A stretch of 44,156 nucleotides of DNA, taken from NCBI RefSeq assembly GCF_018811945.1, contig NZ_JACRVU010000022.1:1-44156 (forward strand). The letters run 5' to 3'. The stretch is from Gluconobacter sp. P1C6_b (GTDB taxonomy: Bacteria > Pseudomonadota > Alphaproteobacteria > Acetobacterales > Acetobacteraceae). Below are positions 173 through 43,598 of the stretch, piece by piece (positions within the stretch are counted from its first letter, which is position 1; each line of letters starts with the position of its first letter). The notes under the pieces were generated by a model. The model was not told where the DNA came from. It saw only the letters and a list, made by a program, of their open reading frames with translations, and did no database searches. The position numbers were made by a program, and so were the translations under genes.

Positions 173-1866
<1,694 letters not shown>

Positions 1867-1870
<4 letters not shown>

Positions 1871-2052: not shown

Positions 2053-2485
2053 GATCAGGAGCTCTCTGCCGGAAAAGATGAGCGGCAGATTCCGACAGAA
2101 CGTAATGACTCCGACCGATATGCAGGCTTGTGATCAGATTGTCCGAGACGCAGCGTCTCAGCGTCGATCGCGACGTTTCAAAAAAGCTTGCCGCGTATTC
2201 GATCTTTATCAGGGCAGGGATGCAATAATAATTTTGCAGGACTGTTTCCATATCCCCGGCAAGCGTACCGCGCGTCTTGTCAGCTGCCATCTTCTTTTGG
2301 AGATATCGTCGGCATGCGCTCGCTGGTATCAATACCCGTGCCCGCCGTCCCTCCTTACGGTGCACGACTTCGCCAGGTTGGATCAAAGGGAGGATGCGTC
2401 GGCTCGATATTCCGATGACGCTGCTACACTCAGACGCCAGGATCAGGTCAGGGAAAGATTGAGCGGAAGAATACTGAGACGTCAT
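2045..2485 (-). CDS. Double helix-turn-helix protein, candidate excisionase / directionality factor
   Basis: A 146-aa protein with two similar winged-HTH-like halves: residues about 15-65 (ASECSSVIGISSRRILPLIQ followed by a basic wing) and about 95-135 (AASFFETSRSTLRRCVSDNL followed by SLHIGRSHYVLSESAAHLF). The second half resembles MerR/Xis-type excisionase domains. The ATG at 2485 has GGAG seven bases upstream. It is the first gene of a three-gene operon ending in the recombinase, the place where a recombination directionality factor or a repressor would be expected. The function is inferred from fold and context; a plain transcriptional regulator of the integrase is the alternative. Confidence 0.75.
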   Translation of the reverse strand: MTSQYSSAQSFPDLILASECSSVIGISSRRILPLIQPGEVVHRKEGRRARVLIPASACRRYLQKKMAADKTRGTLAGDMETVLQNYYCIPALIKIEYAASFFETSRSTLRRCVSDNLITSLHIGRSHYVLSESAAHLFRQRAPDHA

Positions 2486-2547
2486 TGTTTTTCTCCAGGC
2501 GACTTATGTTCGGCCTGAAGAGAAGCAAGTGGGATCCGTCTGCTGGA

Positions 2548-2564
2548 GTCCGGATTTTCCGGGA
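2548..2564. terminator. Short hairpin behind the mobilization operon
   Basis: GTCCGG, ATTTT and CCGGGAC form a small GC stem with one bulge, two bases past the stop of the 528-aa gene. On the minus strand no T-run follows, so it would be a weak intrinsic terminator for that operon. On the plus strand it is followed by T-rich sequence. Confidence 0.3.
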
Positions 2565-2566
2565 CA

Positions 2567-7100: not shown

Positions 7101-8162
7101 ATCGAACGCGATTTTGACGCCAAGTTTGCGTAAATTCTGGGCAAGATACGCTTGATAGAGAGCTCCGAGTTCCTTGATCCGTCCACCAAGACGATCGAGG
7201 TCAAGGGCGCCGACGCGACCGGACCGTGTGACAACCGCATTTGGCACCACCACATGCGTGTGAAGCTGAGGATCGCCTGGGATCATGACCGAGACAGGGC
7301 GCGTAAAGGTTTCCCCACTTGACGGGTCCGTGTCTTCCAGGTCGACGGTAGGCCTTGCGGTGAAGTGGATAAACTGCATCCATGCGATGTGCCCCTGGTC
7401 AAAGCCGCCTGAGCCTGCTTTGCCTTTTCTCGCACGACCGATGAGTGTTTCCATGAAGGCCATGGCAGCCGTCACGGCGTCTTGATGCGCCTGCAGGATC
7501 ATGGCGCGTTCGGCATCAGTTTTCGCCAGTGCGAAGGCGATCGAAACGGATTTGTCTGCGGACCAGGTAAGATCGATATAACCAATCGGTGAGCGACGGG
7601 ACGTGATTGCGTCTCCAATTGTCTGTCGGGATATCTTTTGCCCAGCGAAGTTGAGGCCTGCGGCAAGCTGCAGGCTGAGCTTTTCGTCAACGGCATGATC
7701 CTGGGGAACACCGTAAAGATGAAGCAGACGTTTAAATGCTGCGCGGCGCGTGTTGTCCTGTGTACATCCGGCTGCCATCCCGCCAAGTCGTTGCCACGCC
7801 TGGGGATCAGATAAAGACGCAAGCGAAACATCGAGAGTGGAAGCAATATCTGTGGTGCCGGACTGATACTGTTTTCCGGATATCGGACGGCCGTCCGCCC
7901 GAAGCCCGCATAACAGGTTCATGATCATCTCGCGCGAAAGCCCTTTTTCTGTCGTCGACAGGCCGAGCGCGGCTAGCGGTCGTGGATCAATGGAATCGCC
8001 AAGCTCGGCTGAGCAGATATCCGGCCCGAGCGGAGCGCTGCTCCCATTGTAATATTGAAGCAGTGCGTTCTGTACGCTGGGAATGGTTGCTTCAAGGAGG
8101 TGGTCAGCCATGAAGCGCGCGGCTGAGGGCACGCCCCCCGCACCCGTTCGATAAGTCAGCAT
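4119..8162 (-). CDS. MobF-family relaxase-helicase (TrwC/TraA-like)
   Basis: A 1347-aa protein that would nick oriT, stay bound to the 5' end and unwind the strand for transfer. The N-terminal relaxase domain has candidate catalytic tyrosines (Tyr4, or the pair Tyr37-Tyr38), LTWSADKSVSIAFAL near residue 198, and the metal-binding histidines in GDPQLHTHVVVPNAV near 298. A RecD-like helicase follows, with Walker A VGVAGSGKTT (about 610) and Walker B VVILDELSLL. The C-terminal 350 residues are Arg-rich and less conserved. The start overlaps the previous stop (TGATG at 8162), so it is coupled. Its length fits MobF proteins with an intact helicase. No type IV secretion genes accompany it. Confidence 0.9.
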   Translation of the reverse strand: MLTYRTGAGGVPSAARFMADHLLEATIPSVQNALLQYYNGSSAPLGPDICSAELGDSIDPRPLAALGLSTTEKGLSREMIMNLLCGLRADGRPISGKQYQSGTTDIASTLDVSLASLSDPQAWQRLGGMAAGCTQDNTRRAAFKRLLHLYGVPQDHAVDEKLSLQLAAGLNFAGQKISRQTIGDAITSRRSPIGYIDLTWSADKSVSIAFALAKTDAERAMILQAHQDAVTAAMAFMETLIGRARKGKAGSGGFDQGHIAWMQFIHFTARPTVDLEDTDPSSGETFTRPVSVMIPGDPQLHTHVVVPNAVVTRSGRVGALDLDRLGGRIKELGALYQAYLAQNLRKLGVKIAFDPKTGAARLPDVPDAVRDAFSKRTQGGRDAARQFATSQGLEWDNLTSSQRISLLKSGTQGDKRQPKSDDMADFAFWRQTAADLGWTIPDFVGDHPITPLTHPDQQLDRAHHLAAELVAERFKESAVLDEATARHCAAQALIAVGVHAPEDIDIIINTMHTRPLLLDGEETRLICVEHYNRRGDRSLKFTTGLHVTREQTVIELARNAANDRDGAITEPEIDEAILATGLDFSSSHGQAQRRAMTALATCGRLSVLVGVAGSGKTTLLAPLVQAWKKAGRTVWGTAIAWRQATDLADAGIPENQIKACHPLLHGIKTGKISLDANSVVILDELSLLSTIQLLELVQAQANSRCQLVLIGDPQQCQAVEAGPVVDLLRRALGPDTIPELVSSVRQTSERERATALMLRDGKSREALDRKREDGTLVLASGDYSDVVTRIADFWLERHHAGYTAPDFSLTVSAPTNADAREIAREIRIRRRQIGLLGEDLVQIDAIDQHGTTYPMTVARGDHVRLYARTNARYPTATRGIIGNNGSVLEVLDADQTGLTLRNRTGREGFVAWTTLQHPQRSQIRLGYGDVLSIDATQGVTSTEHIEAMPRGSQAINAHRAYTQGSRHREHTWLVTSEAAERRQVAGRRALGDIRPIRSRDILDNMARNMARPDQREGALALLDKARAGRHSAHATLQQACLTIERTRQRTGSSPSLAPALARHRHQKIHDLLAETVSSSLSAQTGHATSLSTGVTDLTAHLKKTISDALAPLADTLPAFRRRRARRLARKRAEERLRRQETRSWRRIERPLTDEEMPDWGTPDYFALIGLSDANGRRSIDMSDAFDFYKHALWRKGDARRGKPVGLKTATREVTRLFQLTLPEAYSSNGPTDRYQDLVLTPQGQPSSLTDHLIDDLNDMEIAFHASARQPDSRVSISHHALVSALSAFDLETVLAVCDRFLLLARPDERQSPGISSDRTLTVTSERHHSGKAKASRHDRQRHSGYDL

Positions 8163-14795: not shown

Positions 14796-15434
14796 TCAGG
14801 GATGAGGCACGCCGCCGATCCAGACCACTTCGCCGAGCAGTTTGAAGCAGTCCAGACGATCGGCTTCGACGTCCTGGGGCGGGTAGCGATGATTGTCAGC
14901 AATCACCCGGACCCCACCACCGAGTTTGGGATCAAGACGACGGATCAGCACAGCGCCAGCGCTCTCCAGCGCATAGAGCGCGCTGCCCGTCACAGCCGTG
15001 ACGCTCCGGTCCACGATGACCAGATCGCCTGAGGACAGGGTCGGCTCCATCGCATTGCCTGCATTGCTGATGAGGCAGAGGGCTGCGAGGTCCCGGGGAA
15101 TGACGCTCTGCAACCAGTCGCGGCCAATCCGCAGGCCATCTTCATGATGATCATACCAGGGCACGACGATCTGGCGGGTCGAGGTGGTCTGGACCGCTGT
15201 CGCCCCGGAAGGTGAACCGCCGGACGCGCCAAAGGCGATCCAGTCCAGGGACACGCCGCAGACCCGGGCCAGGGATGCAAGGGCGGAGAATTTCATCTCC
15301 CCGCCATTCATGTAATCCCTCAGGGTCGTATACGGCACGCCCGCCGCCTTGGCAGCATGGGTGATGCCAATACTCTGGGCCGCTTCGCGGAGGCGCTCGC
15401 CGCGCTCACGCATCAGGCGGATCTGGTCGTCCAT
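14796..15434 (-). CDS. HTH repressor of the S24/LexA type without catalytic dyad
   Basis: A 212-aa protein when started at MDDQIRLMRERG (15434). The N-terminal Cro/C1-type HTH spans about 12-66 (HAAKAAGVPYTTLRDYMNG). The C-terminal S24 domain is recognisable by NAGNAMEPTLSSGDLVIVD (about 124-142). The normal motif is GDSMEP with Ser as nucleophile, but here the position is Ala128, and the expected Lys is Arg165 in VLIRRL. The domain can probably still dimerise but not cleave itself, so induction by RecA-type autocleavage is unlikely. It is divergent from the gene at 15626, with an inverted repeat between them. Confidence 0.8.
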   Translation of the reverse strand: MDDQIRLMRERGERLREAAQSIGITHAAKAAGVPYTTLRDYMNGGEMKFSALASLARVCGVSLDWIAFGASGGSPSGATAVQTTSTRQIVVPWYDHHEDGLRIGRDWLQSVIPRDLAALCLISNAGNAMEPTLSSGDLVIVDRSVTAVTGSALYALESAGAVLIRRLDPKLGGGVRVIADNHRYPPQDVEADRLDCFKLLGEVVWIGGVPHP

Positions 15435-29953: not shown

Positions 29954-31060
29954 ATGGTGCGATATATCTATCAGCGCGCGGAATGGCCGAATTTTCAATG
30001 GGACAAAGAGATCATTTCCCATGAACTGGCCGCCGTGCGTCACCGACAGGGTCGGCTTCTGGGACGCATGGAAAGTCTGGGGTTCGATTTCAGATCGGAA
30101 GCCCTGCTCCAGACCCTGACGGAAGATGTCCTCAAATCGAGCGAGATCGAGGGCGAAAATCTCGATCGTGAGCAGGTGCGCTCGTCCATCGCGCGACGGC
30201 TGGGCATGGATATTGGCGCGCTGGCACCAGTGGATCGGGACGTTGAAGGTGTCGTGGAGATGATGCTGGACGCGACCCGGCATTATGCCGATCCATTGAC
30301 CGCAGAGAGGTTGTTCGCATGGCATGCGGCCTTGTTCCCGACTGGCCGAAACGGCATGTCGCGCATTCTGGTCGGAGAATGGCGTGATGACAGAACCGGT
30401 CCGATGCAGGTCGTATCAGGGCCTGTCGGACGCGAGAAAGTCCACTATGAAGCCCCGTCCGCCAGCAGCGTGCCCGCGGAGATGCAGGTTTTTCTCGACT
30501 GGTGCAATGCTGGGCAGGCGTTGGACCCTGTGCTCAAGGCGGCCATTGCACATCTGTGGTTTGTTACCCTTCATCCATTCGAGGACGGGAACGGGCGCAT
30601 GGCGCGGGCCATTGGCGACCTCATATTGGCGCGTTCGGAGCAGACAGACCAGCGTTTCTACAGCCTGTCAGCCCAGATCCGTCAGGAGCGGAAAGAGTAT
30701 TACGCCATTCTTGAGGCCACCCAGAAAGGAGACATGGACATCACGCCCTGGCTGCGCTGGTTTCTGGGGGCTCTGGATCGTGCTTTTGACCGTGCTGAAC
30801 TGGTCCTGGGAAAGGTCATTCAGAAGGCCCGCTTCTGGGACACTCTGGTAGGTCAATCAATCAATGACCGGCAATGTCTCATGCTGAACCGTCTGCTGGA
30901 CGGGTTCGAGGGTAAGCTGACGTCATCCAAATGGGCAAAGCTCGCAAAGACGTCACCAGATACAGCCCTGCGGGATATCAATGATCTCGTAGAGCGCGGT
31001 GTCTTGGATAAGGAGGCGGCGGGTGGCAGAAGCACGAGTTATGTTCTGGTTCTTCCCTGA
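29954..31060 (+). CDS. Fic-domain AMP-transferase with built-in inhibitory motif
   Basis: A 368-aa protein. Residues about 1-95 match the N-terminal Fic_N/DUF4172 helix bundle and contain the inhibitory motif SSEIEG (Ser62...Glu66-Gly67, pattern [S/T]xxxE[G/N]), making it a class II, self-inhibited Fic. The catalytic loop HPFEDGNGRMAR (His207 to Arg217) is complete. The C-terminal 70 residues form a winged HTH (WAKLAKTSPDTALRDINDLVERGVL). Active enzymes transfer AMP to Ser/Thr/Tyr hydroxyls of target proteins. AGGGAAA precedes the ATG at 29954. It is divergent from the restriction operon; a stress- or phage-linked function is inferred from context. Confidence 0.9.
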   Translation: MVRYIYQRAEWPNFQWDKEIISHELAAVRHRQGRLLGRMESLGFDFRSEALLQTLTEDVLKSSEIEGENLDREQVRSSIARRLGMDIGALAPVDRDVEGVVEMMLDATRHYADPLTAERLFAWHAALFPTGRNGMSRILVGEWRDDRTGPMQVVSGPVGREKVHYEAPSASSVPAEMQVFLDWCNAGQALDPVLKAAIAHLWFVTLHPFEDGNGRMARAIGDLILARSEQTDQRFYSLSAQIRQERKEYYAILEATQKGDMDITPWLRWFLGALDRAFDRAELVLGKVIQKARFWDTLVGQSINDRQCLMLNRLLDGFEGKLTSSKWAKLAKTSPDTALRDINDLVERGVLDKEAAGGRSTSYVLVLP

Positions 31061-31346: not shown

Positions 31347-31820
31347 CTATTCGCGGCCCTGAAAAATAAATTCTTTCAAAGCGACAGGAAGATTATGATT
31401 TTCGTGGCCAGATCGGCAAAGCTTTACAAGCGAAAAGCGTTGCAAGGGCGTTAAGGTTGCCCATTTTTGCAGTGGTATAGAGGAAAGTTCTTTCTCCATA
31501 ATCTGCTTTTGGAGGCACAGGGGCACCGACTGGCTATCCTGCCATTCAGTAGACTGTGGCTGATCAAGAAAAACAGGTTCTTCATTGGTGCGTGTGCGAA
31601 TCAAGTCTTTCAGGAAACGACGATAGGTCAGCCTATCAGGATCTGATTCTGTCGGACGGTAGCAGAGTTCGTAACGATCGTTGTAACTGAAATGGCTCCA
31701 TTGGCGGAGACTGAGTTTTATTCCACATTCATCGAGTTTCATGCGCACGCTCATTGGAATGCAGCGAAGCGTATCGGCGAAATCACGTTCGAATTCAAAT
31801 ATCTGTAAATCTGTGCTCAT
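31347..31820 (-). CDS. Nitrate-reductase-associated protein (Nitr_red_assoc family)
   Basis: A 157-aa protein. The start FEFERDFADTLRCIPMSVRMKLDECGIKLSLRQWSHFS matches the family called conserved nitrate-reductase-associated protein, known mainly from cyanobacterial and proteobacterial nitrate assimilation clusters (recognised from memory; quoted here as a pattern, residues about 7-45). No cofactor motif is visible and the function is unknown; an assembly or stability role for the reductase is often supposed. I use the ATG at 31820 with GGAG eight bases upstream; the longer 177-aa reading overlaps nasS. It is the last gene of the operon. Confidence 0.85.
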   Translation of the reverse strand: MSTDLQIFEFERDFADTLRCIPMSVRMKLDECGIKLSLRQWSHFSYNDRYELCYRPTESDPDRLTYRRFLKDLIRTRTNEEPVFLDQPQSTEWQDSQSVPLCLQKQIMEKELSSIPLQKWATLTPLQRFSLVKLCRSGHENHNLPVALKEFIFQGRE

Positions 31821-31848
31821 GGTTCTGTCTCCGGAAGATCTGTGTAGC

Positions 31849-32829
31849 TTAGGAAATAGGGGCCGGTGTGAGCCAGCCAAGTTCGTAAAGCCGCTTCATA
31901 TTCGCAGGGGTTAACCAACCCTGTGCCTGCATGGCCCGGATCATCCAACTGATTGAAAGATCGACGTCTGAAGCCGAAAAATCGAATTGCATGGCGTTGA
32001 GGTTGTGCTGATCAGGCATGATCTTTTCTGTCGCTTCGCGTGGAAGGGCCAGGCCGCCGTTCGCCAGGGGGCTGGAAAGTTGACGAACGATCTCCGCAGA
32101 ATTGCTGGGGTTCATACAGAAGCGTGTTGCTTCGCCAATGGCGGCCTGCAAAGCTTGCGTCAGCGCCGGCGCACTCTGACCCCAGCGTTGTGTCGTCACG
32201 AGAGTTTTCTCCAGATGACCGGTATGGATATTGGCGGATCCAGCTACGATGGATCCGAGACCATGCAGATCGGCTTCCGTTCCCCAAGGTGGGCCCGCAC
32301 AAAAGCCGTCAATTTCCGCAGCGGCCAGAGCATCTATCATGCGGTCGGGGGGCATGATGACGATTTCCACATCCTGTTCTGGATGGGCATGCAAACTTTT
32401 GAGGAAGTCCATCAGAATGAGGAAATGGGTCGAATACAGATGTACTACTGCCAGCTTGGGGCGCCGGCTTAAACCCGTACGCCAGCTTTCAAAATTTCGG
32501 TGCTTTGTCACGTCATCCGTTCCCAGGAACGGTGGGAGGTGCTGTCCACGAAGAACAACCGTGTTGCCGCCACGGCTGATAGGGATACCCCGGTGCAGGC
32601 CGATTTCCCGACCGCGATGACCCAGCGCCGTCATGATCGCCAAAGGAGGGAAAACCAGCGCAGCGTCCAGTCCATTCCAGACAAGACCATCTGCGATATT
32701 GGCCCACGATGGCGAGACTATCAGTTCCGCATCCAGACCATGTTTTTCAAATATTCCGAGATTGCGGGCGATAATCAGAGGGGCGCTATCTGCCAGCCTC
32801 AGCAGGCCTATTCTGATGGCAGAACTCAT
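31849..32829 (-). CDS. nasS: NasS-like nitrate sensor (periplasmic-binding fold, cytoplasmic)
   Basis: A 326-aa protein of the NrtA/CmpA/NasS type: IRIGLLRLADSAPLIIARNLGIFEKHGLDAELI, then SWANIADGLVWNGLDAALVFPPLAIM. No signal peptide precedes it, as expected for the cytoplasmic sensor NasS and unlike transport proteins. In the known NasS-NasT pair, NasS holds NasT inactive and lets it go when nitrate or nitrite binds. Its start overlaps the nasT stop by 4 nt (ATGA), which supports 1:1 production. No ABC permease or ATPase gene is present. Confidence 0.88.
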   Translation of the reverse strand: MSSAIRIGLLRLADSAPLIIARNLGIFEKHGLDAELIVSPSWANIADGLVWNGLDAALVFPPLAIMTALGHRGREIGLHRGIPISRGGNTVVLRGQHLPPFLGTDDVTKHRNFESWRTGLSRRPKLAVVHLYSTHFLILMDFLKSLHAHPEQDVEIVIMPPDRMIDALAAAEIDGFCAGPPWGTEADLHGLGSIVAGSANIHTGHLEKTLVTTQRWGQSAPALTQALQAAIGEATRFCMNPSNSAEIVRQLSSPLANGGLALPREATEKIMPDQHNLNAMQFDFSASDVDLSISWMIRAMQAQGWLTPANMKRLYELGWLTPAPIS

Positions 32830-33422: not shown

Positions 33423-36400
33423 TCAGTACACATCACGGACGTATCGCCCATTTCTTACAAGGTTACTGACATACTCATCGGCCTGTTCCGTGGACATACC
33501 GCCATAGCGGGCTACGATACGGCGCAGGGCGCTATCGACGTCCCTGGCCATTCGCGCAGCATCTCCGCACACGTAGAAATATGCGCCTCCATGCAGCCAT
33601 CTCCAGAGTTCTTCGCCGTTTTCTTCCATGCGGTCCTGGACATAGATCCGCTGGTCCTGATCACGGGAAAATGCCGTATGCAGATGTGTCAGGCATCCCT
33701 GTTCCATGAAGCCTTCCAGCTCCTCGCGATAGTAAAACCCGTTTTCTGCATGACGCTCTCCGAAGAAAAGCCAGTTTCGGCCCGGGCTGTTACAGGCCGC
33801 CCGCTCCTGGAGGAAAGCACGGAAGGGGGCAATTCCTGTGCCTGGCCCCACCATGATGACAGATTTGGTATGATCGTCAGGTAAACGGAACTGGGATGTG
33901 GTCTGTAGGAAAACCGGGACCTCGGAATCTTCGTGTAAACTTCCCAGCCAGTTTGAGCACAGACCAGGGTAGGGCTCATTATTGACACCCACCGTGATGT
34001 GTACGCTGTCAGGGTATGCTTTCAGCGATGATGCGATTGAATAGAGGCGAGGCTGCATCCGGCGGAAAAGGTTCGGGATATCCTGAGCCTGCACGCCGAT
34101 TTTGGCTGTTGCCAGCAGCTCCGGCAGGTAGCTGGAAGACGGCGCCCCCAATTTTTCCAGCAACGCCGGAGACGGTCGGGACAGATCGAAATGTCTGGTC
34201 AGGGCGTCTGCGAGCGACACAGTTCCATGACCTCGCACTGAGACTGTTGTGCCGGAAGGTAGTCCCAGAGAGCTTAGAACGCTCTCAACAGTTGAGTCAG
34301 CATTGCAGGGCCAGACCCCCAGAGCATCCCCAGGTTCATAGTGCAATCCTGTCCCGGAGAGATCCAGAACGATCTGTCGTGTTTCCTTGTCGCTGTTCCT
34401 TCCCGTCAGGCAGTGATTAAGGCTGATGCGTGCAATCGCAGGGTTGGCTCGGGTGATGGCTGGTGCGTCCGGTAACGGAACGGCTGGGACTGGGACCGTT
34501 TTGGCACCCAGGGCAGCCAGAAATCTGTGCTGCCAAGCCTCAACGGTTTCTTCGTAATCGGGCTCACAATCCTGTCGTGGCATAAGCGGGGTTGCGCCGA
34601 GCGCGATCAGGCGGTCATCAAGAGCCCGACCAAACCCGCAGAAACTGGCGTATGAAGAATCCCCAAGCGCTATCATGGCGTAACGGATATCTTCGCGCAG
34701 TTCCTGGGTATTGCGAAGCTCATCCCAGAAAGCACTGGCGCTATCAGGGGCATCTCCGTCGCCGAAGGTGGAAACGACGAAGAGGACCGTTCCGCAAAGA
34801 TCGGCGGGTTTGCTGGTATCCAGACTCATGGCATCGACACCGTAGCCGCTTTCTTTCAGCCAGACAGCGAGTTCTTCAGCCAGACCTTCTGCCCGACCTG
34901 TCTGGGACGCCCACCGAAGAAGAAGCCTTGGTTGGGTACCGGTCGGACTTTCCGAAACAGCAGGATCCTTCGACACAGGGCTGCGGGCATACAGACCAGC
35001 CAGAAGGCCATTAATTCTGGCTTTCTGCTCTGTCGGCAAAGGAGCACTCGGGGGAACAAAGGGAAGCTCGTTTGCCGGTGGGGCAAGTTTCAGGCCGCCC
35101 ATGAATCCCGTCAACCACTGGCGACTTTCAACGGACAGGACCAGGGGTTCCGCTCGAGCGAGGCCAAGATGCTGTGTCAGATAATCAAGCGGCATGGCAG
35201 GAGCGTTCTCCTCTGCGGGAACAGAAACAGTTTCGATGCGCGAGAGGGACACTGCGCAGTGTTTGATCCCGGGCTGAAGGGAGACGGGGTCCGTGAAATC
35301 GGCCGTGACAGCATTGATTGTCAGATTTTCGCCGAAGCGGTCGTTCCAGTGAAAGGGTGCAAAGCATGTTCCCGGCGCAACGCGGTCAGTTGGACGGGCG
35401 GGAAGGATTGCGGTGCCCCGGCGGGAACGGAGTTCGACGGGATCGTCCTTGCACAGGCCCAGCCGTTCGGCATCAGCAAGAGCGATTTCCACGAAAGGGC
35501 CGGAATTGAGCTTGTTAAGTCCATCGACCCGACCAGTTTTGGTGAGCGTGTGCCATTGATGCTGGAGGCGCCCGGTGTTGAGCAGGAAAGGGAATTCGTC
35601 GTCCGGCTGTTCTTCCAAGGGGAGATAAGGTCGGGCATGAAAAGCCGCTTTTCCGTCGTCAGTGGCGAAAACAGGCGGTTTATTCGGGTCAGGCCGGTAG
35701 CGGATCGGATGGCGGGGCAGGGCGTCTCCCGTCTGGCTAGGCCACTGGACGGGACCGGATTTCAGACGGTCGTGGCTGACTCCGGAAATATCGTAGCCTG
35801 TCCTGGGATTGGCGAAACGGCTGGCTTCGTCAAAGACTTCAGTAGAAGATGAGAAAGTGAAAGCCTCCTCAAAGCCCATCTCACAGGCGACACGTGCAAT
35901 GATGTCCCAGTCTGCCATGGCTTCACCGGGCGGAGAGACAGCCTGCCGGGCCAGCGTCATGGTGCGGTCAGAGTTGACCAGCACGCCATCTCCTTCGGCC
36001 CATAACGCACCCGGCAGAAGAATATCCGCATAAGCCGCCGTTTCCGTGTCGGCGTAGGCATCCTGAACAATGACCAGATCAGCGGCTTCAAGAGCCGCGG
36101 TAACGTTGGCACGGCGTGGCACAGTCGCGACAGGGTTTGTGCAGATGATCCAGCAGGCACGGATTTCACCGCGGGTCATGGCTTCGAACATGGCTATCGC
36201 GCCATGGCCACCTGCTTTGCGAATGGTTCCTGCGGGCAGCTTCCATTGTTGCTCGACAAAGGCCCGGTCATCATCGACCAATGCCGAGCGCTGGCCGGGG
36301 AGGCCGGGGCCCATATAGCCCATTTCTCGACCACCCATGGCATTGGGCTGTCCTGTGAGGGAAAACGGTCCGGCGCCCGGGCGGCAAATGGCGCCAGTGG

Positions 36401-37346
36401 CAAGATGAAGATTGCAGATCGCGTTGGTATTCCAGGCTCCTGAAGTGCTCTGGTTCAGTCCCATGGTCCACAGCGTCAGCCACGCATCGGCTTCCGCAAT
36501 CCATCTGGCGGCTGTTTCGATATCATCTTGTGGAAGGCCGGTAATCCCGGCAACGCGTTCGGGAGAATAATCTGCCAGAAAAGCTGGCATATCGCTCCAG
36601 TCCTTCGTTGCACTGGCGATAAAGTCCGGATCTATCGCGTCATCACGAACCAGAATGTGAAGAATGCCGTTCAGCAGGGCGAGATCGGTGCCTGGGCGGA
36701 TCTGAAGGAACAGGTCCGCCTTGTCTGCCGTAGCGGTCCGTCGTGGATCAACGACGATGAGTTTAGCTCCCTGACGTTTGCGGTCCATCAGGCGCAGGAA
36801 CAGGATCGGATGGCAGTCGGCCATATTGGCGCCGATCACGAAGAACAGGTCCGTGCAGTCGAAATCCTCGTAGCTTCCCGGAGGGGCATCTGCGCCCAGG
36901 GAGAGTTTGTAGCCAGCTCCCGCCGCCGCCATGCACAGACGGGAGTTGGACTCGATATGCTGGGTTCTCAGGTATCCTTTGACGAGTTTGTTCGCCAGAT
37001 ACTGCGCTTCCAGAGACATCTGGCCGGAGACGTAAAGGGAGATCGCATCCGGGCCGTATTCTTCCAGAATCTGCTTCAGGCGACGGGCTGTTTCTCTGAT
37101 GGCTGCGTCCATTCGGGTGGGAACGGGCAGAGACGTCCTGTGCGGCCGGATCTGCGGCATATCCAGCCGTGTAGACGATGACACCGGTTTGTCGCAGGAA
37201 CTTCCTTTGGTGCATAGGCGACCACCATTCGTCGGGTGCTCGGTATCTCCGCGCACCTTGACGATCTGATGGTTCTCAACCTCCAGCACGATGCCGCAGC
37301 CGACACCGCAATAGGGGCAGACAGAACGGATGTCTTCCCGTGTCAT
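33423..37346 (-). CDS. Assimilatory nitrate reductase fused to CysJ-like flavoprotein
   Basis: A 1307-aa fusion that reduces nitrate to nitrite with NADPH. Residues 1-700: [4Fe-4S] motif CPYCGVGC (Cys10, 13, 17 and Cys45), then the molybdenum region with Cys138 in SNSRLCMAAA, and molybdopterin-binding segments through NTGRLQHQWHTLTKTGRV. A linker of about 110 residues follows. Residues about 810-950: flavodoxin domain (RLLLRWASQTGRAEG, STFGDGDAPDS). About 965-1307: FAD/NADPH reductase with PRLYSIASS and GPGTGIAPFRAFLQER. The fusion replaces a separate electron-transfer subunit; such bifunctional enzymes are known in proteobacteria. Gap to nirBD is 6 nt. Needs host Mo-bis-MGD. Confidence 0.93.
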   Translation of the reverse strand: MTREDIRSVCPYCGVGCGIVLEVENHQIVKVRGDTEHPTNGGRLCTKGSSCDKPVSSSTRLDMPQIRPHRTSLPVPTRMDAAIRETARRLKQILEEYGPDAISLYVSGQMSLEAQYLANKLVKGYLRTQHIESNSRLCMAAAGAGYKLSLGADAPPGSYEDFDCTDLFFVIGANMADCHPILFLRLMDRKRQGAKLIVVDPRRTATADKADLFLQIRPGTDLALLNGILHILVRDDAIDPDFIASATKDWSDMPAFLADYSPERVAGITGLPQDDIETAARWIAEADAWLTLWTMGLNQSTSGAWNTNAICNLHLATGAICRPGAGPFSLTGQPNAMGGREMGYMGPGLPGQRSALVDDDRAFVEQQWKLPAGTIRKAGGHGAIAMFEAMTRGEIRACWIICTNPVATVPRRANVTAALEAADLVIVQDAYADTETAAYADILLPGALWAEGDGVLVNSDRTMTLARQAVSPPGEAMADWDIIARVACEMGFEEAFTFSSSTEVFDEASRFANPRTGYDISGVSHDRLKSGPVQWPSQTGDALPRHPIRYRPDPNKPPVFATDDGKAAFHARPYLPLEEQPDDEFPFLLNTGRLQHQWHTLTKTGRVDGLNKLNSGPFVEIALADAERLGLCKDDPVELRSRRGTAILPARPTDRVAPGTCFAPFHWNDRFGENLTINAVTADFTDPVSLQPGIKHCAVSLSRIETVSVPAEENAPAMPLDYLTQHLGLARAEPLVLSVESRQWLTGFMGGLKLAPPANELPFVPPSAPLPTEQKARINGLLAGLYARSPVSKDPAVSESPTGTQPRLLLRWASQTGRAEGLAEELAVWLKESGYGVDAMSLDTSKPADLCGTVLFVVSTFGDGDAPDSASAFWDELRNTQELREDIRYAMIALGDSSYASFCGFGRALDDRLIALGATPLMPRQDCEPDYEETVEAWQHRFLAALGAKTVPVPAVPLPDAPAITRANPAIARISLNHCLTGRNSDKETRQIVLDLSGTGLHYEPGDALGVWPCNADSTVESVLSSLGLPSGTTVSVRGHGTVSLADALTRHFDLSRPSPALLEKLGAPSSSYLPELLATAKIGVQAQDIPNLFRRMQPRLYSIASSLKAYPDSVHITVGVNNEPYPGLCSNWLGSLHEDSEVPVFLQTTSQFRLPDDHTKSVIMVGPGTGIAPFRAFLQERAACNSPGRNWLFFGERHAENGFYYREELEGFMEQGCLTHLHTAFSRDQDQRIYVQDRMEENGEELWRWLHGGAYFYVCGDAARMARDVDSALRRIVARYGGMSTEQADEYVSNLVRNGRYVRDVY

Positions 37347-37352
37347 GAACAG

Positions 37353-40277
37353 TTAAGCAGACAGGCGTTCTGCGATGGTCTCCATAACCCTGGCGCGGAT
37401 TTCAACCTTGCCTTCGGGGGTCAGACGCGTGTCCCACGTTCGCAGGGATTTGCTGGAATCTTCAAGACAGATCCCGTTTTCCAGATTGAAATGCTGTTTG
37501 TAAAGCGGGGAGGCGACAACGAGCTGCCCCCGCAGATCCCCTATGATGCCGCGTCCGATGATATTGGCCTTCGAGAATGGGTCATGGTTGTCCACGGCAA
37601 AAACGCGGGCGGATGTGTTTTCCGTTTCCGGCAGATAAAACAGGGCGATCTGCGCACCTTCATACCAGGCAACCACGCCTGATCGTGGGACCAGATCGTT
37701 CTTGTCGCACAGGGCCGTCCATTCCACCGGACCCGCGCCTTCCAAAAGGGTAGCCTGATTGGGGGCTGGTTTGACCTGATCGCGCTCGGGAACAAGCTGA
37801 ACGTTTGGATCGGGGCGGCTGTCATTGACAAAAGTGCGGAAGCGCTTGAGCTTCTCGCCGTCCGTCAGGGCATCCTTCCATTCACAGTGGTATGTTTCGA
37901 CCACATGCTGCATCTGCTGTTCCAGCTCTTCGGCAATGCCAAGGCTGTCCTTGATGATGACGTCTTTGAGATAATCGAGACCGCCCTCCAGACCTTCCCG
38001 CCAGACAGACGTGCGCTGGAGCTTGTCTGCGGTACGGATGTAGAACATCAGGAAGCGGTCGATGTATTTCACGAGCGTTTCTGAATCGAGATCGGTCGCG
38101 AAAAGCTCTGCATGGCGCGGACGCATCCCGCCATTGCCACAGACATACAGGTTCCAGCCGTTTTCCGTAGCGATAATGCCCACATCCTTGCTCTGGGCCT
38201 CGGCGCATTCCCGCGTACAGCCGGATACGGCGAATTTGAGCTTGTGCGGAGAGCGCAGCCCCTTATAGCGGTTCTCAAGATCCAGCGCCTTACCGACGCT
38301 ATCCTGCACGCCATAACGGCACCATGTGCTGCCAACACAGGATTTTACCGTCCGTGTGGACTTTCCATAAGCATGGCCCGTCTCAAATCCTGCCTCCAGA
38401 AGCTCTCCCCAGATTTCGGGAAGCTGGTGGAGTTGAGCGCCAAACAGATCGACACGCTGGCCACCGGTGATCTTGGTGTAGAGGCCATATTTCTTTGCAA
38501 CCTGCCCCAGGACAATCAGCTTGTCCGGGGTAATTTCGCCACCTGCAATGCGGGGAACAACGGAATAGGTCCCGTTCTTCTGCATATTGGCCATGAACGT
38601 GTCGTTCGTGTCCTGCAAAGGAATATAGAGCGGATCGGTGATCGGCTTGTTCCATGCCGAGGCAAGGATCGAGCCAATGGTTGGTTTGCAGATATCGCAG
38701 CCTAAACCGCCATTACCATGGCGTGTCATCAGCTCTTCAAAGCTGCGGATGCCATGGACACGAACGAGGGAGTACAACTCCTGACGTGTATGGGAAAAAT
38801 GCTCGCAAAGGCTGTGATCGACCTCGATGCCCCGGGCGGAAAGTTCCGTTTCGAACACGCTCTTGAGCAGAGCCGCGCAGCCGCCGCAGCCTGTACTGGC
38901 CTTTGTGCTCTGCTTGAGCGTGGCCAGATCGGCGCAACCCGCATCAATGGCGCTACAGATCGAGCCTTTCGTAACGTTGTGGCAGGAGCAGATCATGGCC
39001 GTATCAGGCAGGGCGTCCGCGCCCAGAAGCTCTGCCCCTTCACCACGCGGCAGGATCAGTGCGGCGGGGTCAGCCGGCGGTTTGATGCCGTTCTGAACAT
39101 ACTGGAAGATCGTGTCGTAATAGGAATTGTCCCCAACAAGGATCGCCCCTGTCACACGCTGGCCGTCCGCGGACAGAACGAGACGCCGATAGGAGCCATC
39201 GGCCTCGCCGATGAAGCGATAGCTCGTGGCGCCGGGCTCCCGTCCGTGCGCATCGCCGATCGAACCTACATCCACACCCTGAAGCTTGAGCTTGGTGGAC
39301 ATGTCCGCGCCCGTAAAGGCGGCGTCTTCTCCGGCCAAAAGGGAAGCAACGGTCCGCGCCATGGTGTATCCCGGTCCGACCAGACCAAAGACCTGATCCT
39401 GCCAGAGCGCACATTCACCGATGGCGAAAATGTCCGGATCGGACGTCCGGCACTGATTGTCGATCACGAGGCCGCCCCGTGCGCCCACAGCCAGCCCGCA
39501 AGCCCTGCCAAGCTGATCGGTCGGGCGGATACCGGCAGAGAAAACAACCATATCGGTTTCAAAAGAAGGACTGTTCGCAAACACCAAGCGATGACGTTTT
39601 TGTTCGCCGGCGACAATCTCTTTGGTCGCGTGGGAGGTTCTCACATCAATCCCAAGCGTCTCAATGCGCCTGCGAAGCGCGCGACCGCCCTCTTCATCAA
39701 GCTGGGCCGACATCAGATGCGTTCCAAGCTGTACGACACTGACGTCCAGCCCCAGAAGTTTCAGGGCATGAGCGGCTTCCAGTCCCAGCAGGCCGCCACC
39801 AATGACGGTTCCATGGCTGGCTCCTTTAGCGGCAGCGCGGATGATGTCCAGGTCCTCAAGCGTGCGGTAGACAAGACCTGCACTTCCGGTATTGCCTGGT
39901 ATTGACGGCACGAACGGGACGGAGCCTGTCGCTAAAATCAGTGTGCTGTAGGGAAGAATACCTTCTTCGCTTTCCACGGCCCTGGCGTCACGGTCGATCC
40001 GCATGACAGGAACACCCAGATGCATGATGATGCCGTGAGCCGAGTGAAAATCTTCCTCATGCAAACGCAGGGCCAGCGCATCCTGACTCGTCATGTATTC
40101 CGTAAGATGAACGCGGTCATAGGCATGGTGGCGCTCGGAGCCAAAGACATGGATCTGATGCGTTTCATGCAGACCGTGCATGACGAGCTGCTCGGCACAG
40201 TAATGTCCAACCATTCCGTTGCCGATGATGATGATGTTCTCTTTCATGGTCATCTGTCCGTTCTCTGAGGCAGTCAT
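37353..40277 (-). CDS. nirB: NADH-dependent nitrite reductase, NirB-NirD fusion
   Basis: A 974-aa enzyme reducing nitrite to ammonium. FAD/NAD(P) domains (about 12-320; IIIIGNGMVGHYCAEQL, GTVIGGGLLGLEAAHAL), then a BFD-type [2Fe-2S] site (ICSCHN ... TGCGGC), then the sirohaem/[4Fe-4S] domain with SCVGSTWC and SGCTRECAEAQ. The last 110 residues are a NirD-like Rieske-fold domain (NHDPFSKANIIGRGIIG, VASPLYKQHFNLENGICLE) lacking the Cys/His cluster ligands, as in E. coli NirD. ATG at 40277 starts 2 nt after the porin stop; ATG at 40253 is an alternative. Sirohaem synthesis is not encoded here. Confidence 0.93.
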   Translation of the reverse strand: MTASENGQMTMKENIIIIGNGMVGHYCAEQLVMHGLHETHQIHVFGSERHHAYDRVHLTEYMTSQDALALRLHEEDFHSAHGIIMHLGVPVMRIDRDARAVESEEGILPYSTLILATGSVPFVPSIPGNTGSAGLVYRTLEDLDIIRAAAKGASHGTVIGGGLLGLEAAHALKLLGLDVSVVQLGTHLMSAQLDEEGGRALRRRIETLGIDVRTSHATKEIVAGEQKRHRLVFANSPSFETDMVVFSAGIRPTDQLGRACGLAVGARGGLVIDNQCRTSDPDIFAIGECALWQDQVFGLVGPGYTMARTVASLLAGEDAAFTGADMSTKLKLQGVDVGSIGDAHGREPGATSYRFIGEADGSYRRLVLSADGQRVTGAILVGDNSYYDTIFQYVQNGIKPPADPAALILPRGEGAELLGADALPDTAMICSCHNVTKGSICSAIDAGCADLATLKQSTKASTGCGGCAALLKSVFETELSARGIEVDHSLCEHFSHTRQELYSLVRVHGIRSFEELMTRHGNGGLGCDICKPTIGSILASAWNKPITDPLYIPLQDTNDTFMANMQKNGTYSVVPRIAGGEITPDKLIVLGQVAKKYGLYTKITGGQRVDLFGAQLHQLPEIWGELLEAGFETGHAYGKSTRTVKSCVGSTWCRYGVQDSVGKALDLENRYKGLRSPHKLKFAVSGCTRECAEAQSKDVGIIATENGWNLYVCGNGGMRPRHAELFATDLDSETLVKYIDRFLMFYIRTADKLQRTSVWREGLEGGLDYLKDVIIKDSLGIAEELEQQMQHVVETYHCEWKDALTDGEKLKRFRTFVNDSRPDPNVQLVPERDQVKPAPNQATLLEGAGPVEWTALCDKNDLVPRSGVVAWYEGAQIALFYLPETENTSARVFAVDNHDPFSKANIIGRGIIGDLRGQLVVASPLYKQHFNLENGICLEDSSKSLRTWDTRLTPEGKVEIRARVMETIAERLSA

Positions 40278-40279
40278 GG

Positions 40280-41926
40280 TCAAAACTTGAATTCGAGAGT
40301 CTGCATGTAGAACGCGTCGCTTTTTGCGCCTGCCGTGCGCATGCTGCGAGATGCGATGAAGCCTGCGATGTCGTGAGTCCAGGTCCAATGTGGAGCAAAG
40401 TTCCAGGCAAGTTGCGTCTGGGGAGTGGCCCCAATAAAGCCGCCAGATAACCCATTGCGCCAAGAATAGATCTTGCCTGTGCCATACACCGCATCCTGTG
40501 TGCTTTCCCGCCAGAAGAAAGGCACATGCAGCTTGATGTGAAGGTTTTTCCGCAGAGCAAATGTCGCCAGAGGCCCCACACCGATCAGGTTCTGGGACGT
40601 TACGGACAACGTCACATCGTTATAGTACGGCAAGGGAAAATAAGGGGATGCAAACGTCCCGACTGCGCCATCCTTGCTATGATAGGAGCCGCCGGAAAAA
40701 AGATCGGCCTGCAGACCAGCGCTCGGCTTGGTCGCAAGATCAGGACGGTTATACAGCAGGGATGCATTAACAGCATAAGCCCGTACAGCACGGGTGGGCT
40801 GCCTTTCCTGTGCTGGCCGAAACTGGCCTCCCTGAAACACACCGCTCAGGCTCGTCGAGAAAGGGCCGATATTTCCCCATAGTCGCATGCCGACATTGTC
40901 CCGACGGCTGGAACCTGCCTCTGTACCCGTTGTCGTCGGGATAGATGCTGTGGAGCCACTGTAGAGATAGCCGATGTAAAAGACGTCTGCGAAAAGCTGA
41001 CTCTTCTTTCCCATGGCTCTGAATGCAGGAAGCGCCGTGGACGTCATGGCGCCATACATCCGGGCACTGTAGTTCGTGCCATCTCCAAAGACAGCATCAG
41101 GCAGTTTGTTGGTCTGCATGAAATCAAACAGATCCACCCGAAAACGTTTCCAGATGGCATAGCCACGGATACCATCCCAGGTCTGCTGTGCATTCGTCAG
41201 GTCCCGGGCGGACTGCATGAAGACAGGCGTATCAAGGAAGACCTGTCGACCACCAATAATGCCGGCTTTGGCTCCCAGAAGATTGCCCTTCACTTCCAGA
41301 ATACCCTGCTGGAGATCCAGTCGTTCCCGCTGCACCCCTGTCTGGTATCCGTAGGTATTGGAGCCTCCTGCGACGCCGTACAGGAACTCGGCATAAGCGC
41401 GGACATGCGCTCCCAGATGAAGATCGGCGCCATAAAGATTGCGCAGAAGAACCCGGTTGGCGTTGGTCTTGCCTGCCGTTCCCATCATGGGCTGGTTTTC
41501 ATAGACATAACGGAGGCGTTCTTCCGCGTTCAGAGAAAGCCAGATACTTCCGCTTTCATTCAGGCGAATATATTTCAGGCGGCTGAACCAGTCATTCCTG
41601 CGCTGTTCCGGCGGGGTATTAACGATATCGCTCCAGTCTTCCGCCCAACGAACCTGACCAAAGCCCGCCATTGACCCGAAACCGGATGCGGCTCCGTTCC
41701 CCGCATTGAAAACATCCCAGTCCGGGGAGTGCGCGGAGCGGTTTTGCTGGGTGTGAACCGGCTGAGTGACGGCTTTTGTTCTGGAGCGTTCGGACAGATG
41801 AACCCCGACATGGGGGTTGGGAGTATCGTCAGCTTTCACGGGGCTGGAGAATGCCAGCCCCCCCAAAGCAAGACCTGCCAGCATGGGCGCATAGGGAAGG
41901 GGAGAGAAGACGGAAAGACCAGTCAT
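40280..41926 (-). CDS. Alginate-export-family outer-membrane porin
   Basis: A 548-aa protein starting at MTGLSVFSPLPYAPML (ATG overlapping the transporter stop, TGATG). A signal peptide of about 33 residues ends near SPVKADD. The mature chain fits the alginate_exp beta-barrel family: WAEDWSDIV, WLSLNAEERLRYVYENQP near the first strands, and the outer-membrane terminal Phe (LEFKF). A longer 693-aa reading is only the shadow of the transporter gene. In nitrate operons such barrels probably allow nitrate or nitrite through the outer membrane; substrate is inferred from position. Confidence 0.85.
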   Translation of the reverse strand: MTGLSVFSPLPYAPMLAGLALGGLAFSSPVKADDTPNPHVGVHLSERSRTKAVTQPVHTQQNRSAHSPDWDVFNAGNGAASGFGSMAGFGQVRWAEDWSDIVNTPPEQRRNDWFSRLKYIRLNESGSIWLSLNAEERLRYVYENQPMMGTAGKTNANRVLLRNLYGADLHLGAHVRAYAEFLYGVAGGSNTYGYQTGVQRERLDLQQGILEVKGNLLGAKAGIIGGRQVFLDTPVFMQSARDLTNAQQTWDGIRGYAIWKRFRVDLFDFMQTNKLPDAVFGDGTNYSARMYGAMTSTALPAFRAMGKKSQLFADVFYIGYLYSGSTASIPTTTGTEAGSSRRDNVGMRLWGNIGPFSTSLSGVFQGGQFRPAQERQPTRAVRAYAVNASLLYNRPDLATKPSAGLQADLFSGGSYHSKDGAVGTFASPYFPLPYYNDVTLSVTSQNLIGVGPLATFALRKNLHIKLHVPFFWRESTQDAVYGTGKIYSWRNGLSGGFIGATPQTQLAWNFAPHWTWTHDIAGFIASRSMRTAGAKSDAFYMQTLEFKF

Positions 41927-43107
41927 CAGCCGATCTCCCGCCAGCGATGGTGACACAGTACAACGGCGATGCAGGCAATCAGGCAGATCCCGGCGAAAGC
42001 GAGAAATCCCGGCCCGTAAGAATTGACGATCTGTCGGGCTTCCCCCAGTGAGAGCGCCAGGTAGAAGCCGCCGACCCCGCCGGCCATACCGACCAGCCCT
42101 GTCAGAATGCCGACCTGACGCGGGAAGCGGGCTGGAACAAGCTGAAAAACGGCGCCATTGCCCAGCCCGAGCGTTACCATCCCCAAGAGGAATACCGGGA
42201 ATGCGAGATAGATCGTCGGAAGTCCAAGGGCAATGACGCAAAAGCAGCCTGCCGCGACCGCATACAGGATGGTCAGGGCTTTCGTGCCGCCCACACGGTC
42301 GGCGAAGGCTCCTCCAACTGGCCGCACAAAAGAGCCTATGAAAACGACAAATGCCGTACACGCACCAGCAACGGTGGGAGAGAGATTGTACTGGTCATTG
42401 AAATAAATGGTGAGGAACGACGCAAGACCCACAAACCCACCAAAGGTCACGCTATAGAAAAACATCAGCAGCCAGCTATCGCCGGATCCCAGAACTGGAC
42501 CCCATGAGCGCAGGCCCGGAGATGCTGGCCGATTGACAGGCTCTCTGGCCAGAATAAGGAAAAGTAGCAGAACGCAGATGAGCGGAAGCGTCGCAAGGCC
42601 GATGACGTTGCGCCATCCCACCAGAACCGCCAGTCCGGGCGCAAAAAGTGAGGCCAGCGCGGTTCCTGAGTTGCCTGCGCCTGCAATGCCGAGCGCGGTT
42701 CCCTGATACTGCGGAGGATACCAGACGGAGGCAAGGGGAAGGGCAATGGCGAAAGATGCCCCAGCAACGCCAAGAATGCCCGCCAGTCCGAACATCTGAC
42801 CGTAAGTATGAGGTGCAAGGTACCAGACCAGGGCAAGGCCGAAAATGACTGTAAGCTGTGCGGCAATCGCGACGCGGCGCGGGCCGAACATATCCACCAG
42901 GCCCCCAGCCAACACACGAAAGGCGGCCCCGGCCAGCACAGGCGTTGCGACTAGCAGTCCTTTCTGCCCAGCATTCAGGTGAAGGTCATGCGCAATCGCA
43001 ATGCCGAGAGGACCTAACAAAACCCAGATCATGAATGAGACGTCGAAATATAGAAAAGCGGCCAGCAGGGTTGGTGCGTGCCCGGCTTTCAGGAAACCCC
43101 TGTCCAC
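41926..43107 (-). CDS. Nitrate/nitrite transporter of the NarK/NasA (NNP) family
   Basis: A 393-aa major-facilitator protein with 12 predicted membrane helices. It has the nitrate signatures GIAGAGNSGTALAS (about 138-151) and GLGNGAVFQLVPARFP (about 317-332), and the MFS loop motif GGLVDMFGPRRV. It brings nitrate through the inner membrane by proton symport or nitrate/nitrite exchange. First gene of the operon; the start is a GTG at 43107 (MDRGFLKAGHAPTLLAAF). The ribosome site is weak (TGGAAA), and an 11-bp hairpin ends 12 nt before the start, so translation may be controlled too. Confidence 0.93.
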   Translation of the reverse strand: MDRGFLKAGHAPTLLAAFLYFDVSFMIWVLLGPLGIAIAHDLHLNAGQKGLLVATPVLAGAAFRVLAGGLVDMFGPRRVAIAAQLTVIFGLALVWYLAPHTYGQMFGLAGILGVAGASFAIALPLASVWYPPQYQGTALGIAGAGNSGTALASLFAPGLAVLVGWRNVIGLATLPLICVLLLFLILAREPVNRPASPGLRSWGPVLGSGDSWLLMFFYSVTFGGFVGLASFLTIYFNDQYNLSPTVAGACTAFVVFIGSFVRPVGGAFADRVGGTKALTILYAVAAGCFCVIALGLPTIYLAFPVFLLGMVTLGLGNGAVFQLVPARFPRQVGILTGLVGMAGGVGGFYLALSLGEARQIVNSYGPGFLAFAGICLIACIAVVLCHHRWREIG

Positions 43108-43119
43108 AATACATTTCCA

Positions 43120-43148
43120 GACGACACATCAAACAGGGATGCGTCATC
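43120..43148 (-). promoter_or_regulatory. Strong hairpin just upstream of the transporter start
   Basis: On the minus strand GATGACGCATC and GATGTGTCGTC form an 11-bp stem (two G-U pairs) with the loop CCTGTTT. It ends 12 nt before the GTG start. No T-run follows, so it is not a plain intrinsic terminator. The CCCTGT at the loop edge (43138-43133) is complementary to ACAGGG in codons 2-4 (43103-43098), so a loop-to-start contact could hide the start codon. Confidence 0.6.
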
Positions 43149-43163
43149 GCCCATTTAGGGCCA

Positions 43164-43243
43164 GTGGACCGCCATTGATCCACCCTATGCGTCTCCGTCC
43201 TGACCGGACAAACCCGACTCTCCACCGGCACTGATAGAGTATC
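43164..43243 (-). promoter_or_regulatory. Nitrate-operon leader with paired ANTAR-type hexaloop hairpins
   Basis: First hairpin, 43243-43216: GATACTCTATC and GGTGGAGAGTC around the loop AGTGCC (10 of 11 positions pair, counting G-U). Second hairpin, 43183-43164: GTGGATC and GGTCCAC around the loop AATGGC (7 pairs). Both loops have six bases with A first and G fourth, the known signature of ANTAR RNA targets, which come as two hairpins. NasT of the same operon is the expected ligand. The first hairpin starts about 12 nt after the predicted transcription start. Confidence 0.75.
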
Positions 43244-43261
43244 GTTACATTGTGTGTAGAG

Positions 43262-43289
43262 ACTATATTGCAGAACGATCTGATGTCAA
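43262..43289 (-). promoter_or_regulatory. Sigma70 promoter of the nitrate operon
   Basis: On the minus strand TTGACA (43289-43284), 16-base spacer, TATAGT (43267-43262): perfect -35 and five of six -10 bases. Transcription would start near 43255 and give a leader of about 148 nt. Upstream DNA is very AT-rich and may act as an UP element. No sigma54 -24/-12 pair or NtrC site was seen. Confidence 0.75.
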
Positions 43290-43598
43290 AATAATAAAGT
43301 ATGGTTGGAACGATTCCTTCTGACGGTTAAATTTCGAGTGCTGAGAAATAAATATCGCATAATATCATGCGTAATTTTGGGTTTTTTAAGAGGAAAACAA
43401 GTTTTAATGAGCATACCTAAATTATTACATCTATATAAAATAATTATAGAAAATATATTTCTATGAAATCCTTTGAAACACTTAAAAATAATATAAATTA
43501 TCAAAATTATTTTTGTAAGTATTTTGTAATAATTTAATTATTATTTATTTAAATATGTATGAGGCGCCCCCTGCTTGATGGGTTCGACGGAAGACGGA
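43290..43598. other. AT-rich non-coding stretch upstream of the nitrate operon
   Basis: About 310 bp, extremely AT-rich between 43420 and 43560. No gene is supported. It probably contains binding sites for nucleoid proteins and may boost the promoter at 43262-43289. Confidence 0.5.

Follow-up and report, generated by a model that had tools for sequence, protein, structure and literature searches.

Paired hexaloop hairpins before a Gluconobacter nitrate operon resemble a terminator-less variant of an ANTAR-target RNA

Introduction

Does the nitrate operon on a contig of Gluconobacter sp. P1C6_b carry, in the RNA leader of its first gene, a target for its own ANTAR regulator, and by what step might binding be turned into expression? 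The contig (NZ_JACRVU010000022.1 of NCBI RefSeq assembly GCF_018811945.1, family Acetobacteraceae; the whole 44,156-nt stretch is hereafter "the window") encodes narK, a porin, nirB, nasA, nasT and nasS in this order on its minus strand, and an earlier reading made from the letters alone (the sequence-only reading) had noticed two hexaloop hairpins between the promoter and narK. The hairpin pair is confirmed here, comparisons among relatives make the leader very probably a NasT target, and the RNA looks like a terminator-less variant of an ANTAR-target RNA.

ANTAR proteins of Firmicutes and Proteobacteria appear in the papers cited here as antiterminators, which bind a pair of closely spaced hairpins and block the terminator that overlaps them. 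For NasT systems a two-hairpin motif has been reported (PMC7496416), and in Paracoccus denitrificans the hairpins HI and HII, 46 bp apart, are found 137 and 91 bp upstream of nasA (PMC5424462). The linker of eut targets measures 5-12 nt, and shorter or longer ones fail (PMC3369931), while the actinobacterial set of ANTAR-target RNAs was defined with a 2-25 nt linker; only a few of these RNAs are followed by a recognisable terminator, and many are close to a ribosome binding site (PMC8164766). Literature on such leaders in acetic acid bacteria, or in connection with Rho, was not found, judging by titles.

Results

A tandem pair of hexaloop hairpins precedes narK

Three hairpins form the upstream part of the leader:

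43215..43244, minus strand: P1, first ANTAR-type hairpin (loop AGTGCC at 43232-43227, closing pair C-G)
43194..43212, minus strand: Pm, small hairpin within the linker (7 pairs, loop GGTCA; RNAfold-predicted)
43163..43184, minus strand: P2, second ANTAR-type hairpin (loop AATGGC at 43176-43171, closing pair C-G)

The arms of P1 (43244-43233 and 43226-43215) are paired at 11 of 12 positions, with several G.U pairs and one A.A mismatch, and those of P2 (43184-43177 and 43170-43163) form 8 pairs, two of them G.U. Both hairpins belong to the minimum free energy structure and the centroid of the 143-nt leader (RNAfold, -56.5 kcal/mol, z -2.90), and P2 ends 55 nt before the narK start codon. RNAfold and a check of positions thus bear out the two six-base loops with A at position 1 and G at position 4 (A1/G4) named in the sequence-only reading, as well as a further small hairpin in the linker (predicted at 43212-43194); its stems of 10 and 7 pairs were right to within one pair each (11 and 8 here) and its linker of 32 nt to within two bases (30 nt here).

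Tandem stem-loops of at least three pairs each, with A1 and G4 in a hexaloop, are what defines an ANTAR target, and the window leader has them, as do the targets of EutV (Enterococcus) and NasR (Klebsiella). Both window loops are also closed by C-G, the closing pair that was chosen together with A1/G4 in a NasR SELEX (systematic evolution of ligands by exponential enrichment) experiment (PMC7496416). Such an arrangement rarely arises by chance: tandem A1/G4 hexaloop hairpins of at least 7 pairs occurred in 5 of 5000 dinucleotide shuffles of the 150-nt leader, and one other tandem pair passes the same test on either strand of the 44-kb window (14965-15017, with unrelated loops). Rfam 15 at gathering score found only a 5S rRNA and a tRNA in the window and nothing at the leader, and at E up to 10 over 43000-43500 it gave a single weak match, which lies on the opposite strand and not within the leader.

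The two stems are kept by compensating changes

We searched for NarK in 31 genomes, namely the window's, five more of Gluconobacter and the 25 family genomes with the best NasT matches, and found a relative at E 1e-40 or better in 29. Two leaders (L038, L039) identical to a third (L037) were dropped from the counts. When only A1, G4 and a stem were asked for, 20 of 29 leaders showed both hairpins, 8 showed one and L055 showed none; with a C-G closing pair required and mismatches allowed, a hairpin pair was found in all 29, with poor stems for P2 of L060, L063 and L065 and for P1 of L049, and with P1 of L062 chosen by hand in place of the automatic choice.

Across 23 leaders from genera other than Gluconobacter (alignment A1), the 14 tested P1/P2 pairs are paired in 87.3% of cases and 12 of the 14 change on both sides, with a covariation of 0.587 vs. 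0.233 in shuffles and at most 0.202 when the structure is slid along the alignment; RNAalifold predicted the same two hairpins unaided. Similar results come from 26 leaders of acetic acid bacteria including the window's (alignment A4), in which 19 pairs are 81.3% paired and covariation reaches 0.507 vs. at most 0.195 slid, the outer P1 pairs being poorly kept. Even inside Gluconobacter there is a compensating change, from A-U to G-C in P1, between the window leader and L139, so that relatives do keep the structure by changes on both sides.

Covariance searches place the leader with NasT

Because Rfam gave no ANTAR-type match, we built a covariance model (R1) from alignment A1, that is, without Gluconobacter. 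In the covariance check proposed by the sequence-only reading, R1 gave the leader as best match in the window's genome (43159-43244, 27.0 bits, E 0.27). Over 26 Gluconobacter genomes, ten were matched at E up to 1; in all six that bear NasT the best match lies at the narK leader, and in one of the four without NasT (G220) it is a true narK leader. By NarK identity and position, the other NasT-bearing genomes of the genus correspond to contigs of G. aidae, Gluconobacter sp. Dm-62, G. japonicus, G. frateurii and G. potus.

On a larger scale, R1 matched 40 of 200 family genomes at E 0.05 or better, 36 of which have NasT (E 1e-15 or better), although 20 of the 23 training genomes are among those 40. 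Restricted to the 177 non-training genomes, NasT is present in 16 of 20 matched vs. 21 of 157 unmatched ones (Fisher P = 1.7e-9). Among 80 NarK loci from named genomes, 28 were matched, each once, on the coding strand and just upstream of narK (27 at positions 803-954 of a locus with the narK match from 1001, and L137 at 678-763 with narK at 815). These are 28 of the 32 loci L137-L168, and among the 28 are three model genomes (L153, L163, L168), five Gluconobacter and several others that are near-identical; L148, L150, L165 and L166 were missed. In the Acetobacter leaders L148 and L150 both hairpins are apparently present by eye, with P1 closed by U.G. The 48 non-proteobacterial loci (L169-L216, Bacillota and a few Nitrospirota by title) gave no R1 match. 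At E < 0.01 only 2 of 17 comparison loci were matched, which marks R1 as a family model rather than a general ANTAR model.

Taken together, covariation, the R1 matches and the co-occurrence with NasT support the proposal of the sequence-only reading that the leader fits the ANTAR recognition pattern, and there is little doubt in our minds that it is an ANTAR-type RNA targeted by NasT. The setting is also that of the NasT leaders of P. denitrificans nasA and Bradyrhizobium nosR, where a NasS-NasT pair goes with a leader RNA before nitrate genes.

The promoter and the possibility of a relic

Upstream of P1 lies a sigma-70-like promoter:

43284..43289, minus strand: -35 hexamer TTGACA (11/12 matches jointly with the -10 hexamer)
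43262..43267, minus strand: -10 hexamer TATAGT (16-nt spacer to TTGACA)

The leader might be a relic, inherited with the operon and no longer used by NasT, with constitutive expression from this promoter. Promoter type does vary in the family, in a way that would suit a relic: a sigma-54 -24/-12 pattern is found in 13 of 31 leaders and TTTTGAC upstream of P1 in 12 of 31 (not in the Gluconobacter leaders L040 and L042), and none has both. Two genomes, moreover, keep the leader with no ANTAR domain found. In G220 (L067) the leader and the first part of narK are followed, near a contig end, by an ORF that we recognised by eye as a probable transposase, and G174 (L093, L132), 99% complete, has narK with a NasT-type leader; neither an ANTAR domain nor a relative of the window's NirB was found in either genome. 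Against a relic stand the both-side stem changes, seen even among Gluconobacter leaders (window vs. L139) and widely in other acetic acid bacteria, together with a NasT that is full length and without stops in all six of the 26 Gluconobacter genomes that have it. We thus regard a relic as very improbable. The TTTTGAC -35 element of the family often comes with a similar spacer.

A long linker is the rule in the family

The 30 nt between the end of P1 and P2 exceed the 2-25 nt of the actinobacterial definition (PMC8164766). The sequence-only reading had called the linker rather long, which is borne out, though long linkers are the rule in the family and also occur outside it. Linkers are longer than 25 nt in 28 of 29 family leaders, assuming seven-pair stems, and the loop-to-loop distance, 56 in the window, ranges from 42 to 66 over the 29. 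Among the 17 comparison loci, L112, L116, L117 and L124 (46-53) and L110 (65) have a top-ranked pair that is similarly spaced, and in the rest the pair is closer or absent. Linkers fold at -7 kcal/mol or better (raw energies) in 25 of 29 family leaders, and their hairpin sequences do not align across leaders. Such a linker hairpin would shorten the effective distance between P1 and P2. The window leader therefore differs from EutV and NasR targets, with their short linker (5-12 nt for eut; PMC3369931) and overlapping intrinsic terminator, in its 30-nt linker, in the hairpin inside it and in that no such terminator was found.

No strong terminator was found at the second hairpin

We scanned for terminators in three ways: with a tool on the minus strand of the window (42900-43260), from P2 to +150, and with looser rules from P2 to +60. 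The first gave no terminator-like site. At a score of at least 20, a cut chosen after the scores were seen, terminators were found in 0 of 31 Acetobacteraceae narK leaders and 0 of 11 further model matches, and in 30 of 1500 random 180-nt segments. Unlike these leaders, the comparison NasT leaders, taken from other parts of the class, reach that score with a T-run terminator in 8 of 14 cases. Seven of these 8 terminators have a 5' arm that starts at or within the second hexaloop; the eighth leader, L113, has no hexaloop pair that could be found, and in L119 a hexaloop-overlapping terminator falls just under the cut (18.5). The 14 derive from 16 loci less L123 and L125 (no pair) and L126 (weak pair only), with L113 kept and the Paracoccus marcusii plasmid locus L110 added.

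Lower scores were also followed. Candidates appear in 11 of the 31 family leaders in the P2-to-+150 scan, most of them inside narK (the candidates of L047 and L053 start after P2 and ahead of the start codon, the one of L058 at -12), and the P2-to-+60 scan yields a candidate of any score in 13 of the 14 comparison leaders. The family maximum is 18, inside narK of L047; in L042, which scores 17, P2 forms part of the stem and the P4 loop (see below) supplies the T run. The window itself has a weak terminator-like stem with a T-rich tail (13.5 points) that spans the start codon.

Hairpins P3 and P4 adjoin the ribosome binding site

Downstream of P2 the window leader contains:

43149..43161, minus strand: P3, mini hairpin GCCC/GGGC directly after P2 (RNAfold)
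43120..43148, minus strand: P4, hairpin of 11 pairs immediately upstream of the ribosome binding site, no U tract after it (RNAfold and covariation)
43116..43119, minus strand: TGGA, weak Shine-Dalgarno-like element right after P4 (putative role)

In acetic acid bacteria the order is P2, P3, P4, then a GGA-type element and the start codon, and the addition of P3 and P4 sets these leaders apart from other alphaproteobacterial NasT leaders. P4 is 90.6% paired over 20 leaders, all 9 tested pairs change on both sides, and covariation is 0.826 vs. at most 0.227 slid. Over 16 leaders, the folding of the P3-P4 stretch surpasses that of its shuffles by 1.9 standard deviations on average, with L047 (0.2) and L050 (-0.6) as exceptions whose benefit is near or above zero; P3 shifts register in the MAFFT alignment. 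The GG of the Shine-Dalgarno-like element is invariant in a 16-row alignment (A2).

These features bear on classical ANTAR antitermination, in which NasT on P1-P2 would block an intrinsic terminator that went unrecognised here, either P4 without a U tract or one in early narK. This is the printed mechanism for EutV, NasR and NasT (PMC3369931, PMC7496416, PMC3795266, PMC6759348), it fits the strong terminators starting in the second hexaloop of 7 of the 14 comparison leaders, and several family leaders including the window's do have weak terminator-like stems with a T-rich tail early in narK. P4, however, is followed by no run of four T in the window or in any of the 16 rows of A2, and it shares no bases with P2, so that NasT on P2 would not exclude it. 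In five relatives only 23-29 nt separate the end of the P2 loop from the start codon, which leaves little room for a terminator. Together with the empty scan of 42900-43260, this leaves antitermination rather unlikely, though a serious contender.

As an alternative, NasT on the leader might repress translation by occluding the ribosome, as for actinobacterial ANTAR targets, in a negative feedback. ANTAR targets that overlap the ribosome binding site have been described (PMC8164766), and in some relatives P2 is near the start codon; the 55 nt between P2 and the start codon in the window speak against occlusion, repression by nitrate-released NasT would shut nitrate uptake while nitrate is present, and in Paracoccus NasT is a positive regulator (PMC3795266). 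We find this highly unlikely. The window leader resembles the actinobacterial RNAs, few of which precede a recognisable terminator and many of which are near a ribosome binding site (PMC8164766), and differs from them in having P1-P2 further upstream and another conserved hairpin next to the ribosome binding site.

Sequestration of the start codon by P2, whose 3' arm in the window could pair with the GTG-GAC start, was considered as a general switch and rejected. Leader elements did not pair with the start region more strongly than permutations did (P between 0.09 and 0.91, depending on the element and set).

The operon lies in a mobile-element-like setting

The operon, within a genome of 3.39 Mb, comprises:

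41926..43107, minus strand: NarK-like nitrate/nitrite transporter of the major facilitator superfamily (MFS), start GTG (most relatives have V or M at this position)
40280..42361, minus strand: Alginate_exp-type outer-membrane porin (the listed ORF overlaps narK; its true start is probably further in)
37353..40463, minus strand: NirB-type nitrite reductase with a C-terminal Rieske domain
33423..37346, minus strand: assimilatory nitrate reductase (NasA) fused to flavodoxin, FAD and NAD binding domains, 1307 aa
32826..33413, minus strand: NasT, receiver and ANTAR domain
31849..32829, minus strand: NasS, NMT1_2-type nitrate sensor

As the sequence-only reading had noted, NasT and its sensor NasS are encoded in the same operon, here with the nitrate assimilation genes, and no ANTAR protein other than NasT was found in the window's genome. 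Directly after nasS follows a Nitr_red_assoc (PF09655) protein (31347-31880), and a Fic/DOC protein with DUF4172 (29954-31060) lies on the strand opposite to the operon.

Between a tRNA-Met and the operon are a serine recombinase, a TrwC-type relaxase with helicase domains and a type I restriction system. With the recombinase beside the tRNA-Met and the relaxase (206-8162), the window looks like an integrative mobilisable or conjugative element. The narK-to-nasS order is also annotated on a plasmid of Acetobacter ascendens and, in part, on one of Komagataeibacter xylinus.

R1 matches also occur away from narK. On the conjugative A. ascendens plasmid (NZ_CP021525.1) a match of 33.7 bits precedes nirB in the same operon (L109, 6826-6897); it lies in the gap between porin and nirB, where the record annotates a small hypothetical gene on the other strand. 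In G001 (L128, C2:27972-28055) a match stands directly before an Alginate_exp porin, on a contig other than that of narK and nasT, which suggests that the porin serves nitrate uptake. Further matches precede NMT1_2, NirB-like and MFS proteins.

Discussion

The leader appears to work like an ANTAR target while showing neither of two features of a strict antiterminator, the overlapping terminator and the short linker. Since the scans gave no intrinsic terminator that overlaps P2, the output step probably departs from the textbook, and we lean slightly towards a step other than intrinsic antitermination. On balance we consider probable the reading as a whole, judged from sequence, that the leader is a nitrate-inducible NasT target whose output runs via P3-P4 rather than an overlapping terminator.

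Such a leader would make the narK-porin-nirB-nasA-nasT-nasS operon nitrate-inducible after transcription start. When nitrate is absent, NasS would hold NasT, by analogy with Paracoccus. Nitrate would free NasT, a dimer of which would grip the A1/G4 hexaloops of P1 and P2, the linker hairpin presumably bringing the two within reach. Bound NasT might then act on P3-P4 at the ribosome binding site, where it would aid the start of translation or prevent Rho-type polarity. More generally, it is tempting to propose, as a possibility short of probable, that the NasT system of Acetobacteraceae has lost its intrinsic terminator and serves as a translational or Rho-linked activator. In this scheme NasT sits on P1-P2, which a structured linker would keep together, and would control P4 where that hairpin occurs, in acetic acid bacteria. 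An ANTAR output via a hairpin abutting the ribosome binding site is not described in the passages on ANTAR systems cited here.

Several observations weigh against this reading. Adding 20 nt to the eutP linker abolishes EutV antitermination (PMC8934654). The looser terminator rules give weak candidates in 11 and 19 of the 31 family leaders, mostly reaching into narK. Blocking P2 in silico hardly alters the accessibility of the start region, and pairing of P2 with the start is no stronger than in permutations; with both of these simple models failing, neither yields a concrete switch. The compensating changes that the sequence-only reading had expected among related leaders were found in both stems, but the constancy of A1/G4 is partly owed to our rule for selecting leaders, which demanded A1, G4, a closing C-G and a stem, so that constancy of these loop and closing bases is not independent evidence; the model searches are less exposed to this rule than the alignments. 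In those searches, the three other NasT-less Gluconobacter genomes matched score 26.1-26.7 bits, like the window's 27.0, so that the score alone cannot tell the window leader from whole-genome chance, whereas its position does, and the stricter filters of the large searches gave no match in the window's genome. Lastly, four family genomes (G027, G038, G174, G178) have an R1 match without NasT at E 1e-15. G027 has an ANTAR protein by family search and none was found in the other three; the matches of G038 (among ABC transporter genes) and G178 (before nothing identified) precede no recognisable nitrate genes and are probably due to chance.

With nasT and nasS at the end of the operon that they would control, expression would reinforce itself. 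Since the operon has mobile-element-like surroundings in the window and is plasmid-borne in other acetic acid bacteria, regulator, RNA target and nitrate genes can move as a unit, and the suggestion in the sequence-only reading that transfer of the island carries its own regulation seems fair given the recombinase, relaxase and tRNA-Met setting. If the proposed reading is true, ANTAR targets can change their output, with the hairpins kept, the linker stretched and structured, no such terminator seen and, in acetic acid bacteria, a covarying hairpin at the ribosome binding site, and the linker rule for ANTAR targets would become testable.
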